Positions 22,127-29,993 of a stretch of DNA of 64,000 nt are shown in pieces. Each line of letters opens with the position of its first letter. Position 1 is the first letter of the stretch. The translations under genes were made by a program, and so were the position numbers. Source of the stretch: Planctomycetota bacterium (GTDB lineage: Bacteria; Planctomycetota; Planctomycetia; Planctomycetales; Planctomycetaceae); assembly GCA_018242525.1 (NCBI GenBank), contig JAFEBS010000019.1, positions 248,001-312,000 on the forward strand, read 5' to 3'. Below the pieces are notes generated by a model that was given only the letters and a program-made list of their open reading frames with translations, searched no databases and was not told the DNA's origin.

Positions 22127-22135
22127 ATGCGACCG

Positions 22136-22549
22136 ATGTTCGGAAAGAAGAAGCCGCTGCCATCCGTCGGACCGCTGGAGAATGCGGTGATGCATATTCT
22201 ATGGGAACGAGGGACCGCTTCGGCAGACGATGTTCGGCTGGTGCTGGAACAATCGCGCAAAGTGAAGGAATCGACCGTACGGACATTGCTTCGTCGGTTG
22301 GAAACCAAGGGCCTGATCACGCACGACGTCGATGGTCGCACATTCATTTATCGACCCAGGGTGGCTGCCCGGAACATGGCGGCGCAGGCGGTGCGAGGAA
22401 TTATGGAACGATTCTGTGCGGGATCCGTCGAGGCGCTGCTGGCCGGGATGGTCGACAGTGAACTGATCACGCCCGCCAAGCTGCGTGAACTGGCCGAGAA
22501 GATTTCCAGGGCCGAACGCGAGGCTGAACAGCCGAAGGCAAAACGTTAA
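22136..22549 (+). CDS. BlaI/MecI-family transcriptional repressor
   Basis: 137 residues. The winged helix occupies about residues 10-75 (GPLENAVMHILWERGTASADD, VKESTVRTLLRRLETKGLI-THDVDGRTFIYRP), the standard BlaI arrangement with recognition helix STVRTLLRRLETKG. The C-terminal dimerisation helices follow (FCAGSVEALLAGMVDSELIT…). ATG 22136 fits the AAAGG site; an ATG at 22127 is too close to it. It lies 21 bases upstream of a BlaR1-type M56 protein, the classic pair in which the sensor protease triggers cleavage of the repressor. Confidence 0.92.
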   Translation: MFGKKKPLPSVGPLENAVMHILWERGTASADDVRLVLEQSRKVKESTVRTLLRRLETKGLITHDVDGRTFIYRPRVAARNMAAQAVRGIMERFCAGSVEALLAGMVDSELITPAKLRELAEKISRAEREAEQPKAKR

Positions 22550-22570
22550 CCTGCATCCAAGGCAACAATC

Positions 22571-25500
22571 ATGTTCGAATGGACTGTCTATTGGCCGGCG
22601 CTGGTCATCGATGTTTCATTGAAGACTCTGCTGCTGGCCGGCATCACGGGACTGACTCTGTCGGCGGTTCGTCTGCGCAACAGTGCCGCGAAGCACGCCG
22701 CCTGGACGGGCGTGCTCAGCGCGTTCCTGATCCTGCCGGTGATGTCGATGACTCTACCGGCCGTCCCGATGACGATCCCGAACTGGTTACTCCGAATCGC
22801 GGAATCCAGTTCGGACATCTCCGAGCCGGCATCGTCCTTGAATCCGGGCATCTCGCCCAGTTTGCAGGCCGCGTGGCGACACGAGGAGCCGGAGATGGAA
22901 TCCGGTGTCAGCCCGTACGTCATTCGCACCCCGGATGTGAACGCGCTCGCATCACTGACAAAACCTGTGTCGACCAGTTGGACTTTGCCGGCCTGGTTGC
23001 CAGTGATGACGTCGGTCTGGATCCTCGGGGCGATTGTCATGATGGCCCGACTGGGGTTTTCGATTGCCATCACGCGCCGATTGGTCGCACGGTCGACGGT
23101 GATTTCCCCAATGAATGAACGATTGTCTCGCAACAGGGAGGTTCGGCCGGACACCAGTCGACGAGCGAGCATAACCCTGCGGGAGAGCCCATTCGTGTTG
23201 GTCCCGATGACGACCGGCTGGTGGAGACCGAACATCCTGTTGCCCGTTGCGTGGCACACCTGGACGGCCGAGAAGCTGGGTCATGTGCTGGATCACGAAC
23301 GGGCACATCTTCGGCGCGGCGACAACTGGACTGCGCTGGCTGCCGAAGTCACCACATGTCTGTATTGGTTCCACCCGTTGTCCTGGTGGTTGCGACGGCA
23401 GCTTTCCGCCCTGGCGGAAGCATGCTGCGACGATGCAGCGATCGGCGTTCCAGAAAAGCGTGCCGCCTACGCCCGACATCTGCTGGAAATCGCCAGCGTC
23501 TTGAGTGGGCAACCACACCGTCTGCATTACGCGGGACTGGCGATAACGCGGCATTCCCAGGTCGAACGTCGCATTCTGGCGATTCTCGACACCAGCCGTC
23601 CGCTTTCAAAGCGTTTGTCGCGAACCAGGGCTCTGCTGTGGGTCGGCATTCTTGTCCCTGTACTGGCCGCATCAGCCGTCTTGAAGCCAACGATGGGAAC
23701 GAGTGCCGAACCGCAGGACATCGCCGCAGGCTCAGCGGTCTCAAGTGTCAAGCCTGACAATTCGGAAGCCGTCAACGATCAGGCCGCCGAAAGGTCAGTG
23801 GTGCCGGGCAGCGTGCCTGCAATTCGCGTTCACGGCCGGATCACTGTTCCCACGCATCAGGCGGCCGTCGGAGCATTCGTGGCGATCGTCGGCGAGACGT
23901 TGACGAATGATCGGGGAAGCATATCCGTCACGCTGGCCGAGGGGATGACCGATCAAGACGGTCAGTATGAACTCGCCGTGACCGGCGAGTCCACCAGGAC
24001 GGACGGTCGACCGCGCTTGATCGTACGAATGAAGGGCCGAGCTCTGGCAGAGCAGTCGGTCGACTTCGATCGGAAGGACTCACACATCGACCTGACACTC
24101 CAACCGGAGCAGGTGATCAAGGTTCGACTGGTGGATGCACAGGGAACGGGGGCATCCCACGTCGTCGCGGTGATCGCCGGAATCACGCCGGCCGCGGCAG
24201 CCTCTGACCGTCCATTCTGGTTGCTCGATTTGCAGCCTCTGGCCAGGGTCGTTCCCACGTTCGTGACTGATCAGGATGGTTTTCTGGAGATCCACCACGT
24301 TGCGGCCGGTTGCGGTGTTCACCTGCACATCCGTGGCAACGAGAAATTCGCTCCCCAACAGGTGTCGCTCAATACCGGAATGCCCGAATCGCGACCGGAC
24401 AATGATGCCACATATCGGCCATTCGTCAGAAACCTGCGGGCGGATGAAACGGCAACGATTCCGTTGGCACCGGCCACTCCGTTTGCGGGGATCGTGCGTC
24501 TTGGCAACACCGACAAACCCGCCGCAAACGTGAAGATAACCGTCTGGTCCGGTCAGCAAGAGATCGGGGGCTCCATGATTGCCCTCACCGGTGAAACGGA
24601 TGCGGATGGCCGGTTTCGTCTGAATCCGTATCCGGGGGTTCGATTCGGAATTGATGCGTTTCCACCGGCGGGAACTTCCTACCAGATTCGCCGCTTGCAA
24701 GATGTGAAATGGGAATCTGAAGCCAGTCAAAAGCTGGAGATCCGCCTGGCCCTGGGAGTCCTGGCCCAGGGAACCGTCATGGACGCCGTCTCCGGAAAAC
24801 CTCTCGCCGGGGCGTCGGTCCAATATCATCCTGAACAGGCGAATCCGAACGTGACGGACGACATCGTGACGGGGTGGCAAAGCATCCAGCAGACTGATGG
24901 AAATGGCCGATTCCAGATTCCGGTTGTTCCTGGACCGGGGACGCTGCTGGTTCACGCTCCTCAGGGAACCAGTTACATTCTGCAGCAGCGAGGCAGCCGG
25001 GAATTGCAGTGGGGTCAGCCAGGCGGGATTCGCTATTACGCGCACGCCTTTCAAAAAATCGATCCTGCCGCGAGTGCGCCGGGGACCGAGCCTTCGGTGA
25101 TGGCTCCACTGTCCATCAAGCTGCAACCCAGTGGAACCGTGACGGCGAATCTGGTCGATCTTGCGAGCAACTCCATCCAGGAAGCCATTTACACTTCGCG
25201 ACTCTTCATTCTGCCTTTAAATCCGTTCTGGCGAGCCTACTCAGAAAAAGCGAGAAATGGACAGGCGGTCATCCGGGGATTGGAGCCCGGGCAGCGATAC
25301 CCGGTCTGCTTCCTGGACGTCAAACGCCAGTTGGGAGCAACCGCCATGGTCTCGCTGGATGATCCCCAGCCCACGATTGTCCTGCAGCCATGTGCTGCCG
25401 CGAACGCACGGTATTTGTTACCGTCCGGCAAACCGGTGAAGCAAGGAACAATGTTCGGCTTGACCATGCTGGTCACTCCCGGGAAACCGAAATACACCAT

Positions 25501-25741
25501 TGACCCGGTGCAGAAAGAGGCCCTGGAAGCCGACGAAGACTTCTCGACGAATTTTGACGGATCCCGGAATCAGCGGGGTACCGACCAGAATGGCGTCGAA
25601 CATTACCAACTGCTGATTCCCGGGGCGACGTATCGATTCCTGAACCTGAATGGCGGCAAGGTCCAGGTGGCAAAGGAATTCATTGCGAAAGCCGGAGAGA
25701 TTCATGAATTGGGGGAGATCACCGTCAACCTTGAAAACTGA
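22571..25741 (+). CDS. BlaR1/M56-family membrane metalloprotease with a large carboxypeptidase-regulatory-like C-terminus
   Basis: 1056 residues. N-terminal hydrophobic helices (about 9-35, 45-65, 142-162) surround a peptidase M56 domain with the zinc motif HERAH at 242-246 (LDHERAHLRRGDNW) and the downstream AEACCDDAAI supplying a further acidic ligand. A last transmembrane segment lies near 350-372. Instead of the penicillin-binding sensor of BlaR1, residues about 410-1050 are a series of carboxypeptidase-regulatory-like β-sandwiches (IRVHGRITVPTHQAAVGAFV, GTVMDAVSGKPLAGASVQYHP, PSGTVTANLVDLASN). These are likely extracellular ligand-binding modules. It probably cleaves or triggers cleavage of the adjacent BlaI-type repressor when an unknown ligand binds. 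Confidence 0.9.
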   Translation: MFEWTVYWPALVIDVSLKTLLLAGITGLTLSAVRLRNSAAKHAAWTGVLSAFLILPVMSMTLPAVPMTIPNWLLRIAESSSDISEPASSLNPGISPSLQAAWRHEEPEMESGVSPYVIRTPDVNALASLTKPVSTSWTLPAWLPVMTSVWILGAIVMMARLGFSIAITRRLVARSTVISPMNERLSRNREVRPDTSRRASITLRESPFVLVPMTTGWWRPNILLPVAWHTWTAEKLGHVLDHERAHLRRGDNWTALAAEVTTCLYWFHPLSWWLRRQLSALAEACCDDAAIGVPEKRAAYARHLLEIASVLSGQPHRLHYAGLAITRHSQVERRILAILDTSRPLSKRLSRTRALLWVGILVPVLAASAVLKPTMGTSAEPQDIAAGSAVSSVKPDNSEAVNDQAAERSVVPGSVPAIRVHGRITVPTHQAAVGAFVAIVGETLTNDRGSISVTLAEGMTDQDGQYELAVTGESTRTDGRPRLIVRMKGRALAEQSVDFDRKDSHIDLTLQPEQVIKVRLVDAQGTGASHVVAVIAGITPAAAASDRPFWLLDLQPLARVVPTFVTDQDGFLEIHHVAAGCGVHLHIRGNEKFAPQQVSLNTGMPESRPDNDATYRPFVRNLRADETATIPLAPATPFAGIVRLGNTDKPAANVKITVWSGQQEIGGSMIALTGETDADGRFRLNPYPGVRFGIDAFPPAGTSYQIRRLQDVKWESEASQKLEIRLALGVLAQGTVMDAVSGKPLAGASVQYHPEQANPNVTDDIVTGWQSIQQTDGNGRFQIPVVPGPGTLLVHAPQGTSYILQQRGSRELQWGQPGGIRYYAHAFQKIDPAASAPGTEPSVMAPLSIKLQPSGTVTANLVDLASNSIQEAIYTSRLFILPLNPFWRAYSEKARNGQAVIRGLEPGQRYPVCFLDVKRQLGATAMVSLDDPQPTIVLQPCAAANARYLLPSGKPVKQGTMFGLTMLVTPGKPKYTIDPVQKEALEADEDFSTNFDGSRNQRGTDQNGVEHYQLLIPGATYRFLNLNGGKVQVAKEFIAKAGEIHELGEITVNLEN

Positions 25742-25809: not shown

Positions 25810-28800
25810 TCAGGGCCCGCCGCTCGCTCCAGTCGCCTGGTCGACTTTGACCTTCTGTGTGGCAGGGATGAATTCGATCCGCCGACCGCTCGCCTCACGA
25901 CGTTTCCCATGATCGTCCTGGGCAATCATGGCGCTTTGATTGCCATGCGCGCGCAACATGTACAGTCCCTTGGAACCGTCGAAACTGATTTCGTCGGCAT
26001 TGGCGTAGAACCCTTTTCCCTCGATCTGGGCATTTCCCTTGCCGACCAGTTGCTGGTACCCCTTGGGGTGAACAGGACTCTTGGGACCCTGTGAGAATTC
26101 GAGTGTCTTTTCACAGCGCATGCTGCCAGCATCGGGTGGCAGGTGGTCCGGGTCGATCGTCATGTTGGGCAAACTGACGGGCCCATGGACGATCTGGACG
26201 GAATCGTAGAACGTGGAGACCTGTTGCGTAATCTTGCCTTCCATGGAACCCTTGAAATCCACCTGGGTGTAGTCCCAATCCGACGACACAGTTCCAATCG
26301 GACGATTGGCTCCCTGAACAACCCCACGTGAATTGCCGGTCTGATGTCCCGTGCTGCCACGCTGCCAGACCTGCATTTGCCCGGGGCCTTGAGCGAACGT
26401 CTTGGATCTCAGTCGATCCAGCGTGAATTCCGCCACGCGTCCGCGCTGAACCTGGATCTGCTTACTTCCTTCATATTCCGAGTTCTCGAAGGAAACTTCC
26501 TCGCGGCAATGAATCTTCGCCAGTTCAGGCTGTTGCCGACTGTTCGGTTCGGTAAATGAGATCCGGGAAGACAAGGTGACGTCCATCAATTCGCAGCGCA
26601 TCCGACTCCACCCCAACTCCAGTTCGACCTTCCCGACAAACTTGGCAACCTGCCCGTCAAACTCCATGGATTCCCCCCATTTGACATCCAGATCCGGATC
26701 GTTGGTGGCCTGTCCGAACGATTCCAGTCCGGTTCCCGGTGGAACGGGCAACTGCAGCAACCCGTTTCCCTGGACTCTCACCCGATTGGTTTCGCGATTC
26801 AGCTGGACTTCGCGTCCTTCGACATGGATCCCTCGATCTCGCAAGTGCGCAGGATTTCCGAACAGGTGCACGATCTCGCGATCCTTGCCCCGATTTTGCA
26901 GTTGCAGGCGTTCCCCCTCGGCCGTCATCGGCGGTTCGCCCTTTCCGCGGTGCTGCACGATTTTCACATGCCCCGTCGTATCCACCTCCACCATTTCCGG
27001 CTCGGCCTTTCCGGCAATGCGCTGCATCCGCACGTTGATTCGGTCCGCGGTCACTCGGGGGGATTGCGCGACGGGCTTGGGTTGCGGTTGGACGTGAGCT
27101 GGGCCGACTGTGTCATCGCCTCCCGGCGAGATACTGATCGGGGGCCACAAGGAATTCTTCTGTTGATCCGCTGCGAAACCGGCCGGACTGACGCGGCCAG
27201 TGCCAGTCCTGCGTGGCCCGGGTTGTGTTCGCGCGGGACGAGCCTGGTTTGCCGGCTCGACAGGTTCTTCAAAAGTCACCAATTCCAGCGACGAACGAGA
27301 ATGCTGTCCGATGACGCGCGGGGTCCCCGTTGGTTCGAGGAATTCCACCGTCAGTTCGCTGGTGTTTGCCTCCAGTTGCGGACTGAACAGCGCCACGTTT
27401 CTTTCGGCGATCAATTGACGGGGTTGCAACTCGGGGCCGGGATGGGGGGTCACGGAATTGCGGTTGCCGGACGGGAGACCGACAGTGACCGGGACCATCC
27501 ACAGGCGAATCAAATCGGCGCCCAGGGCCGTTCCCTGGCTGGGTTGACGAAAGGTCGCCTGCTGTTCGAGTTGAATCAGGTCCAGCCCCTTGACCTGATC
27601 TGAAGACTTGTGAATCAGCAGTTGTCGAGCCCACGAAACGACGTACTGTCGGTCCCGGGCATTGGGGCGGGTCATCTCCAGCAATCCCACTCCCCGGCAG
27701 AAGACCTCGTTCAGGGAATTGTCGGAAAGCATGCGCGCTTCAATTTCCGGGACCACGCCCGGAGTCTGGTGCTTTGGATCAAATTCCATCGCCACCTTAT
27801 AGCCCTGCTGCAGGACCGTCACCTTGCTGGCATCGATCAACTGCAAGCGGTGTTCCGCCAGATCATAGGTCAGGCACTTCATCGTGGCATGCAGGTTGTT
27901 TTCCGTCGAGACAATCGAAACGGTCTGCCCCCGGGCGATCAGACGCTTGAACTCCAGGTTTGTTTCCAACTGTTGGAACGCTGGCGATTCGCCCTGTTCC
28001 TTGTTCTGCGCAACCGCGTCATCCGGCCTCGCGATAGCGCGTACCGGATCGAACTTCAGCCACAAATCATCGCATTCCAACTGGTCGTATCCAGCCCCGC
28101 TCGTACGCTGGTGAGCCCTCACCGCCTGGGTGAAGTGCGCCGTGTTCGATCCGACGTCGTATTCCAGATCGCCCGAGCAGCGGATCTGCGCCAGTTGCTG
28201 CTGACCCTGTTGTGGCATGCGAACGTCCAGTTGCACGTGCTCGAATTTCTGAGTCTCGGGATCACGACCACTGCCCAGGCGAATGGTCCGAATCCCGAAC
28301 ACATGTGGTCGATCCTGGCCCGGCGGTCCTTCCGCGGGAATCAGCTTCATGTTCAGTGACTGACCTCGACCCCGATGATTCGCGTACTCGAATCGGACCG
28401 GATTGGTGCTGACCAGCGACGGGGCAGATTCGTCAAACACAAACTGCTTCCCTTCGATCTCCAATCCGTCGGGCCCGGCGATGCGGACCTCACCATCCAG
28501 TACGGCGCCAACCACCCGACCGGGATTCGAATTGAACTGCTCGAATCCAAACTGAAACTTGAGCTGTGCGGATTCGCTGTGCAGCGAGACGGCCGACTCG
28601 CGACCTTCCTTGTCCTTCTGCCGCCAGACCATTGCAAACGGTGAAAAAATAAGGACGCGGGAATCGTCTTCCTTGTGTTTCCATTTTCGGGTGTAAATGA
28701 ACGCCCGTCCTTCGTCAGGGCCTGAGCGCAGCATGTACTTCGACTGCGCGACCCAGTGATAATTCTTCAGGTACGCTTCCGCCACCCGCACATTTTCGGC

Positions 28801-28950
28801 CGGTCGGTGCGTTTCCATCTGCTGCGCCGGTTCCGCGATGGCCGGCATCTCGGGAATCACCACCCACGGACGCATCATCACGGCGTATCCGGCGTACACA
28901 CCTGTCAGGCAGGCGGCCGTCGCTAACGTGAAGAGCAGGCGGTTATACAT
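25810..28950 (-). CDS. Very large LptA/OstA-like envelope protein
   Basis: 1046 residues with one N-terminal transmembrane or signal segment (LLFTLATAACLTGVYAGYAV). The remainder is almost entirely β-strand with recurring LptA/OstA-type phrases: TAEGERLQLQNRGKDREIVH, VEGREVQLNRETNRVRVQG, CRGVGLLEM, GNAQIEGKGFYANADEISFD and LYMLRAHGNQ. A mid-protein linker is Pro/Arg-rich. LptA, LptC and the LptD N-terminus form the β-taco bridge that carries LPS across the periplasm; here several such units seem fused. The kdsD gene ends 38 bases upstream of it on the same strand, strongly suggesting an LPS function. The identification is by composition, motif and context, not by full alignment. Confidence 0.65.
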   Translation of the reverse strand: MYNRLLFTLATAACLTGVYAGYAVMMRPWVVIPEMPAIAEPAQQMETHRPAENVRVAEAYLKNYHWVAQSKYMLRSGPDEGRAFIYTRKWKHKEDDSRVLIFSPFAMVWRQKDKEGRESAVSLHSESAQLKFQFGFEQFNSNPGRVVGAVLDGEVRIAGPDGLEIEGKQFVFDESAPSLVSTNPVRFEYANHRGRGQSLNMKLIPAEGPPGQDRPHVFGIRTIRLGSGRDPETQKFEHVQLDVRMPQQGQQQLAQIRCSGDLEYDVGSNTAHFTQAVRAHQRTSGAGYDQLECDDLWLKFDPVRAIARPDDAVAQNKEQGESPAFQQLETNLEFKRLIARGQTVSIVSTENNLHATMKCLTYDLAEHRLQLIDASKVTVLQQGYKVAMEFDPKHQTPGVVPEIEARMLSDNSLNEVFCRGVGLLEMTRPNARDRQYVVSWARQLLIHKSSDQVKGLDLIQLEQQATFRQPSQGTALGADLIRLWMVPVTVGLPSGNRNSVTPHPGPELQPRQLIAERNVALFSPQLEANTSELTVEFLEPTGTPRVIGQHSRSSLELVTFEEPVEPANQARPARTQPGPRRTGTGRVSPAGFAADQQKNSLWPPISISPGGDDTVGPAHVQPQPKPVAQSPRVTADRINVRMQRIAGKAEPEMVEVDTTGHVKIVQHRGKGEPPMTAEGERLQLQNRGKDREIVHLFGNPAHLRDRGIHVEGREVQLNRETNRVRVQGNGLLQLPVPPGTGLESFGQATNDPDLDVKWGESMEFDGQVAKFVGKVELELGWSRMRCELMDVTLSSRISFTEPNSRQQPELAKIHCREEVSFENSEYEGSKQIQVQRGRVAEFTLDRLRSKTFAQGPGQMQVWQRGSTGHQTGNSRGVVQGANRPIGTVSSDWDYTQVDFKGSMEGKITQQVSTFYDSVQIVHGPVSLPNMTIDPDHLPPDAGSMRCEKTLEFSQGPKSPVHPKGYQQLVGKGNAQIEGKGFYANADEISFDGSKGLYMLRAHGNQSAMIAQDDHGKRREASGRRIEFIPATQKVKVDQATGASGGP

Positions 28951-28988
28951 ACAGACTCCGAAAATCCCGTCTCATCAACAAGGTTTGG

Positions 28989-29993
28989 CTAGCCGATGCC
29001 GATCAGGTCGGTGATGTCCACCAGTCCGATCGGATGCCCGGCGGCATCGACGACGGGAAGTTCGCTGACATGCCGTGATCCCAGTAATTGCAGAACCTCT
29101 TCCAGGATTGCATCCGGACCAATCGTCAGCGGACGAACGGTCATCACTTCGGAAATGGGGTGATCAATTTGTTCGTCGCGTCGATGTTCCAGCAATCGCG
29201 CCAGATCGCTGTCCGTGAACAATCCGGAAAGCAGGCCATCGCCATCGACCAGCATCACTGCTCCCGTGCGACGACCGGGTCGCGACAATGTCACAAACAC
29301 TTCGCGAATCGTGGCCGACTCACTGGCGATTCGAACCTGATCCCCCGACCGCATGATGTCCTTCACCGAAGCCAACCGGCGTCCCAGGCTGCCCCCCGGA
29401 TGAAAGGCGGCAAACTGCTGGGGGGTGAAGTTTCGAACCTGGCTGATCACCATCGCCAGCGCATCACCGATGGCCAGCATCGCAGTCGTACTGGTGGTGG
29501 GAGCCAATCCGTGTGCCCCGACTTCCACCAGCCGTCCCAATTGAATCGTAATGTCTGCCGCAGCACCGAGCGAACTGGCATCGCTGGCCGTAATCGCCAC
29601 GATTGGAAGATCCCGTTCGCGAATGATCGGCAGCAGGCGCAGGATTTCTTCAGTCTCACCGCTGTTGGACAACATCAGCCAGACATCGCCGGGTCCAACG
29701 CAGCCCAGGTCTCCATGCAGAGCCTCGGTGGGATGCACAAAATGCGCCCGCGTTCCGGTGGACGACAGAGTGGCAGTAATCTTTCGCCCAATCAGTCCGG
29801 CCTTGCCGACGCCGGTGACCATTGTGCATCCGCCACACGCAGCCAGCAGATCGACCGCTTCGCAGAACTGGGTATCCAATCGACGCGCCAGCCCAAGCAG
29901 CGCCTGGCCTTCGTGGACAATGATTTCGCGCGCCTCACGCAATTGCGCCAGTCGCGAAGCAGAGACAATGGTATGTTCGGGGACCGCACTCAT
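28989..29993 (-). CDS. kdsD: Arabinose-5-phosphate isomerase (KpsF/GutQ/KdsD family)
   Basis: 334 residues. The SIS domain at about 40-180 contains MVTGVGKAGLIGRKITATLS, STGTRAHFVHPTEALHGDLG and LMLSNSGETEEI. FHPGGSLGRRL (about 202-212) is the linker characteristic of this family, and two CBS domains fill 215-334 (VKDIMRSGDQVR, ISEVMTVRPLTIGPDA, HVSELPVVDAAGHPIGLVDI). It interconverts ribulose-5-phosphate and arabinose-5-phosphate, the first step to Kdo, the LPS core sugar. It is transcribed ahead of the OstA-like gene. Confidence 0.95.
   Translation of the reverse strand: MSAVPEHTIVSASRLAQLREAREIIVHEGQALLGLARRLDTQFCEAVDLLAACGGCTMVTGVGKAGLIGRKITATLSSTGTRAHFVHPTEALHGDLGCVGPGDVWLMLSNSGETEEILRLLPIIRERDLPIVAITASDASSLGAAADITIQLGRLVEVGAHGLAPTTSTTAMLAIGDALAMVISQVRNFTPQQFAAFHPGGSLGRRLASVKDIMRSGDQVRIASESATIREVFVTLSRPGRRTGAVMLVDGDGLLSGLFTDSDLARLLEHRRDEQIDHPISEVMTVRPLTIGPDAILEEVLQLLGSRHVSELPVVDAAGHPIGLVDITDLIGIG

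Follow-up and report, generated by a model that had tools for sequence, protein, structure and literature searches.

LptC and LptA are small proteins that in other bacteria ferry lipopolysaccharide from the inner membrane in the direction of the outer one. In Escherichia coli, LptA is one small soluble protein of 16 strands, and the genes run in the order kdsD-kdsC-lptC-lptA-lptB; to our knowledge, how many LptA units make up a bridge in model bacteria, and what sets the length of that bridge, are open questions. In planctomycetes the Lpt (lipopolysaccharide transport) set is called largely reduced in the available part of a profile survey (PMC8871954), and LptD is reported from planctomycete genomes in the available text of Speth et al. 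(PMC3422733), in which LptA and LptC have no occurrence. Fusion-type terms likewise have no occurrence in the available text of a paper on an Lpt-like system of Borrelia (PMC10353723), and a search of the open PMC literature, with subscription papers and preprints outside its range, found no account of a fused or giant planctomycete LptC-LptA. Here we analyse P0001, a protein of 1046 residues encoded in a 64,000-nucleotide stretch (the window) of a Planctomycetota genome of the class Planctomycetia (assembly GCA_018242525.1, contig JAFEBS010000019.1, positions 248,001 to 312,000). Judged by its sequence, P0001 is a real single-chain LptC-(LptA)3-like protein, with an LptC-like N-terminus followed by three LptA-like modules, and we think it quite probable that it acts as a single-chain bridge protein for the transport of lipopolysaccharide (LPS).

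The P0001 gene occupies window positions 25810-28950 on the minus strand, its assignment as a giant LptC-LptA-like protein drawing on the open reading frame (ORF), Pfam, AlphaFold2, fold matches and hhalign. It lies 38 bp downstream of, and on the same strand as, a gene for a 334-residue kdsD/KpsF-type sugar-phosphate isomerase with one SIS and two CBS domains (28989-29993, minus strand; domain and subfamily models). An earlier, sequence-only reading of this DNA had described a very large LptA/OstA-like protein fused with kdsD; the very large protein and the adjoining isomerase gene are indeed there, but as two separate ORFs, which rules out a fusion. The same reading saw almost nothing but β structure behind one anchor, and an AlphaFold2 model built from 51 sequences largely bears this out (mean predicted local distance difference test score, pLDDT, 82.2; predicted template modelling score, pTM, 0.64): it has helices at residues 2-26 and 51-60 and 58 β strands of at least 3 residues, 31 before and 27 after a disordered linker that departs from the description. 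This linker (residues 543-623, ~80 residues, pLDDT < 50; 27082-27324, minus strand) is the longest disordered stretch of the model and measures 22-104 residues across the 51 sequences. Since E. coli LptA has 16 strands, if that count is right, the 58 strands amount to ~3.6 LptA lengths. The single N-terminal membrane anchor (residues 2-26; 28873-28947, minus strand) is predicted from the AlphaFold2 helix and from a hydrophobic stretch in relatives, found inside the first 90 residues of 50/51 aligned sequences. P0001 has one extra hydrophobic stretch elsewhere, right at the threshold (1.41), as have 6 other sequences of the 51, and a simple pattern found no lipobox.

Structural comparison places P0001 among the Lpt proteins: the model shows the β-taco (twisted jellyroll) fold of LptA and, as in LptC, a taco domain behind a predicted N-terminal membrane anchor. 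With the whole model, Foldseek returned LptD at ranks 1-7 and then a mixture of LptD and unrelated β proteins, LptA and LptC first appearing at ranks 30 and 31 (E about 0.003). In VIA-align, the top 23 rows for the whole model and the top 15 for the C-terminal half were all LptD, LptC, LptA or LptH chains, counting 4q35, titled only 'membrane protein', which we take to be LptDE; several of these Lpt rows are whole-model alignments with a root-mean-square deviation (rmsd) > 30, and figures are given for close ones only. Within the whole model, LptC 4b54 fits residues 82-255 (Z 9.9, rmsd 3.2), LptA 2r1a fits residues 80-245 equally well (Z 10.0, rmsd 3.2), LptH 4uu4 fits residues 160-350, overlapping the start of the first LptA-like module (Z 10.3, rmsd 2.2), and LptA 2r19 fits residues 628-780 (Z 9.8, rmsd 2.2). 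The C-terminal half, modelled alone as one unit (pLDDT 88.8, pTM 0.85), finds its best single structural match in the N-terminal domain of LptD (Z 15.4, rmsd 3.3, 155 residues, model 14-231), alongside LptA 2r19 (Z 14.9, rmsd 2.1, 120 residues, model 11-163), LptA at model 55-206 (Z 13.7, rmsd 2.0) and LptC at model 13-163 (Z 10.8); over the last 200 residues the match to known taco proteins is less certain. Non-Lpt β proteins also align: Morn1 covers the greater part of the C-terminal half (Z 11.9, rmsd 3.0, model 57-428), a radial-spoke chain aligns there with Z 10.0, and teneurin and Rhs chains are among the Foldseek matches, as would be expected were P0001 a structural or adhesive periplasmic protein merely resembling LptA. 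Against this, matches of the family profile in PDB sequences are exclusively LptA, and relatives pass the Pfam LptC and LptD_N models; we give such a role almost no credence.

Those profile matches comprise 8 distinct PDB sequences at E <= 1, all LptA/YhbN and two of them below 0.001, falling at two places in the family profile (359-418 and 698-744); the profile was needed for this, as P0001 alone gave only chance-level matches to PDB sequences in phmmer. The whole of P0001 passes Pfam LptD_N/LptA PF03968 (26.4 bits, cut-off 20.4), with residues 632-722 its best stretch, although individually every stretch is non-significant. The order of the modules emerged from hhalign, in which 7 aligned LptC-positive planctomycete proteins stood for LptC. 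Residues 1-260 matched this LptC set at 89.7% (E 1.8e-6, 73 columns; reversed control 0.5%), whereas residues 624-800 and 790-1046 reached 4.6% and 0.2%; residues 240-542, 624-800 and 790-1046 were in turn mutually similar at 95.1-96.5%. Reversed controls gave 0.1-3.2%, except for residues 240-542 against their own reverse, at 40%. Values of about that size were for this reason not used, among them the scores of this module with the LptC set (36.7%) and with an LptD-like N-terminal part (49-61%); a comparison of residues 1-260 with 240-542 (90.1%) was discarded, resting as it does on a stretch common to both.

This pattern suggests an anchor, an LptC-like part, one LptA-like module, the linker and two further LptA-like modules. 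The LptC-like region spans about residues 70-255 (28186-28743, minus strand; hhalign with the LptC set, fold match 4b54), module 1 about 265-540 (27331-28158, minus strand; 95.1-96.2% against modules 2 and 3 in hhalign), module 2 about 628-790 (26581-27069, minus strand; containing the Pfam LptD_N match, and fitted by LptA 2r19) and module 3 about 795-1046 (25813-26568, minus strand; 95.7-96.5% against modules 1 and 2), the limits of the LptC-like region and of modules 1 and 3 being approximate. Averaged over the alignment, the alternation of hydrophobicity along the predicted strands is significant in all four parts (the observed value is equalled in 5, 8, 36 and 14 of 4000 shuffles). P0001 shares with LptA its taco fold and a sequence match, and differs in having a predicted membrane anchor and about three modules per chain; at 1046 residues with an N-terminal helix it does not look like a small soluble periplasmic protein; with LptC it shares the single N-terminal helix, the fold match and the profile link to LptC-positive planctomycete proteins, and differs in the some 800 residues that follow. 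LptD is set apart by its barrel, for which P0001 has no Pfam match.

The P0001 gene is linked to genes of the 3-deoxy-D-manno-octulosonic acid (Kdo) type. The neighbouring isomerase, taken in the sequence-only reading as a Kdo-pathway enzyme, passes the KpsF/GutQ model TIGR00393 (251.7 bits, cut-off 203.7) and stays below the KdsD equivalog NF008141 (253.2 bits, cut-off 505), so 'kdsD-type' is the safe name. Loci were taken from 82 genomes of the class, made up of best matches and chosen ones, 73 of them testable with at least 900 bases upstream. In 72 of these 73, kdsD is encoded upstream, at most 3 kb away and on the same strand, with kdsC between it and the P0001-type gene in 31; the sole exception, L210, has a split ORF and kdsC further upstream. 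Among 20 loci outside the class, some of them short, kdsD and kdsC both lie upstream in 8, kdsC only in 7 and neither in 5. Given the E. coli gene order, P0001, placed as lptC is after kdsD(-kdsC), fills the slot of lptC-lptA. As the taco shape does not by itself fix the cargo, P0001 might instead be a bridge-like conduit for some other envelope lipid; the near-constant linkage to kdsD, the intervening kdsC, a Kdo transferase domain in the same genome and an LptD-like protein in 59/59 genomes of the class all speak against this, and we regard it as very unlikely.

The other parts of an Lpt system were sought in the organism's own genome (8.45 Mb, 99 contigs). One LptB match exceeds the cut-off (302.6 bits, cut-off 240), LptF/G has two matches (157.1 and 111.9 bits) and the Kdo-transferase N-domain scores 203.1 bits. 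Pfam LptD PF04453 found nothing at E <= 10; a weak PF03968 match led to an LptD-like protein that it leaves unrecognised, P0003 (1023 residues; L037 6304-9375, plus strand), whose own LptD_N score is 16.2 bits, below 20.4. The P0003 family, present in all 59 class genomes just mentioned, has a profile that matches one LptD in the PDB (8h1r, E 1e-4) besides LptA and LptH chains; because LptA is matched at about positions 46-95 but LptD no earlier than 283-428, the profile suggests a long part ahead of the barrel. P0003 fits the planctomycete LptD of Speth et al. (PMC3422733), as far as the available text goes. Separate, complete lptA and lptC genes, which the sequence-only reading had named as evidence against its own proposal, were not found: LptC (PF06835) gave no match in the genome at E <= 10 and OstA_2 (PF13100) none, while PF03968 gave two weak matches only and no separate LptA, in a search so insensitive that the window protein itself went unlisted. 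The second weak match, a marginal one at C88 (E 0.71), lies in a 369-residue ORF that by eye does not read as LptA. At L039 7078-9127 (minus strand), a gene for a PAP2-family phosphatase comes after one LptF/G gene and overlaps it; the phosphatase might act on an envelope lipid phosphate.

P0001 is also conserved, as the sequence-only reading had expected it might be. Scanned against genome contigs, the isomerase matches five Schlesneria assemblies at 71-88% identity and P0001 none; relatives of similar length align with P0001 down to some 20% identity, so it is no chance ORF. As a single query it matched 148/198 class genomes, its own included, and when 20 of the 50 misses were retested with the family profile, in a set that also held G036, already a match, 20/20 proved positive, with open frames up to 1440 residues; the family was thus found in every class genome searched with the profile. 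Across a phylum sample the profile matched 52/149 genomes, 8 of them from the class, and Pfam LptC matched 38/149 at E <= 0.01 (33 over the cut-off), though neither the present genome nor the seven other class members of that sample. Ten long proteins from other classes were scanned: five (L143, L145, L152, L161 and L149) pass both LptC and LptD_N, two LptD_N only, one LptC only and two neither. Like P0001, these five have LptC ahead of LptA/LptD_N within a single ORF, and four, L149 being the exception, have kdsD-kdsC upstream; they differ in their length of 641 to 1115 residues and in an LptC part that Pfam still recognises. ORFs at the 20 loci outside the class run from 343 to 1182 residues. 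Eight proteins of the class gave LptD_N above the cut-off in 4, below it in 1 and absent in 3, and LptC below the cut-off in 2: in L008 it is N-terminal (162-214) with LptD_N after it (269-400), and in L047 it is C-terminal (714-761).

Elsewhere in the phylum, a 2.1 Mb genome has at L183 6507-8469 (minus strand) kdsD-kdsC followed by a separate 174-residue LptC, whose signal-like start has a cysteine close to its end. At L189 6091-6992 (plus strand), in a genome 69% complete, an LptC-like frame precedes a separate 168-residue LptA-like ORF, perhaps the unfused state; neither kdsD nor kdsC was seen in the 12 kb of L189. An apparent row of separate lptC, lptA, lptB and rpoN at L185 (G215 contig 37) was not used, as by eye it looks like a contaminating alphaproteobacterial contig.

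Several results weigh against reading P0001 as a single-chain LptC-(LptA)3 bridge protein. It falls short of the LptA equivalog TIGR03002 (33.7 bits, cut-off 71.7, matching residues 632-729), and Pfam LptC PF06835 (cut-off 21 bits) has no match in it at E <= 1. Both LptC and LptA can be fitted to the N-terminal part, and the same is true of the C-terminal half, so the fold points to an Lpt taco without telling LptA from LptC, and module 1 has its 36.7% with the LptC set, though in the range not used. Among 51 proteins of the class, LptC is found in 6 N-terminal halves at E <= 0.05 and in one C-terminal half, and LptD_N appears in 16 N-terminal halves (E <= 0.05) as well as in 26 C-terminal ones (E <= 0.01). 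In the P0001 sequence alone, the strand alternation of modules 1 and 3 is non-significant (303 and 629 of 2000 shuffles). The continuous β-taco of the sequence-only reading holds as to the predicted fold, which is LptA/LptC/LptD-N-like, and is not borne out as to continuity: the linker interrupts the β structure, and a pTM of 0.64 leaves the relative placement of the halves unfixed. Some phylum genomes, moreover, apparently have separate genes (L183, L189), and the PF03968 genome search misses P0001 itself, so that a diverged separate LptA could escape it.

The last two points, with the general weakness of homology searches at such divergence, are what would be expected if P0001 were an enlarged LptC, the inner-membrane anchored part of a bridge that a separate, diverged soluble LptA completes. 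The own genome, however, offers neither an LptC nor an OstA_2 match, its LptA candidates beyond P0003 come down to the marginal 369-residue ORF, and the chain already holds three LptA-like modules; we judge an enlarged LptC unlikely.

For the LptC-(LptA)3 bridge that we prefer, sequence and prediction support the anchor, the LptC-like-then-LptA-like order, the Lpt fold, the linkage to Kdo genes and the other Lpt parts. From there we infer a route for LPS: the inner-membrane helix of P0001 leads to the LptC-like β-taco, which would dock on LptB2FG; three LptA-like tacos in the same chain, the halves stacked across the disordered linker, would hand LPS onward with lipid A within the groove, and LPS would reach the N-terminal taco of LptD, where the far end would dock. 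Whether P0001 alone makes up the periplasmic bridge, spanning it as one sufficient chain, we put at even chances; the sequence-only reading had raised that idea, and while its observation is confirmed, its interpretation is partly supported. We hold it about equally open to either answer that the planctomycete Lpt system is not reduced. On this view LptC and LptA would have merged, and duplication of modules would have extended the product to an anchored single chain of about 1000-1400 residues; together with the LptD N-domain this chain would form the whole periplasmic LPS bridge, and the gene, not LptA oligomerisation, would determine how long it is. If true, a bridge made of one chain, with its length encoded, would open bridge length and unit number to testing, and would help to explain the 'largely reduced' planctomycete set described in the available part of PMC8871954: the parts would be present, but fused and diverged.

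Beside the P0001 gene, the window carries at 22127-25741 (plus strand) a short ORF that by eye is regulator-like, followed by a 1056-residue BlaR1-type M56 peptidase with carboxypeptidase-regulatory-like domains.

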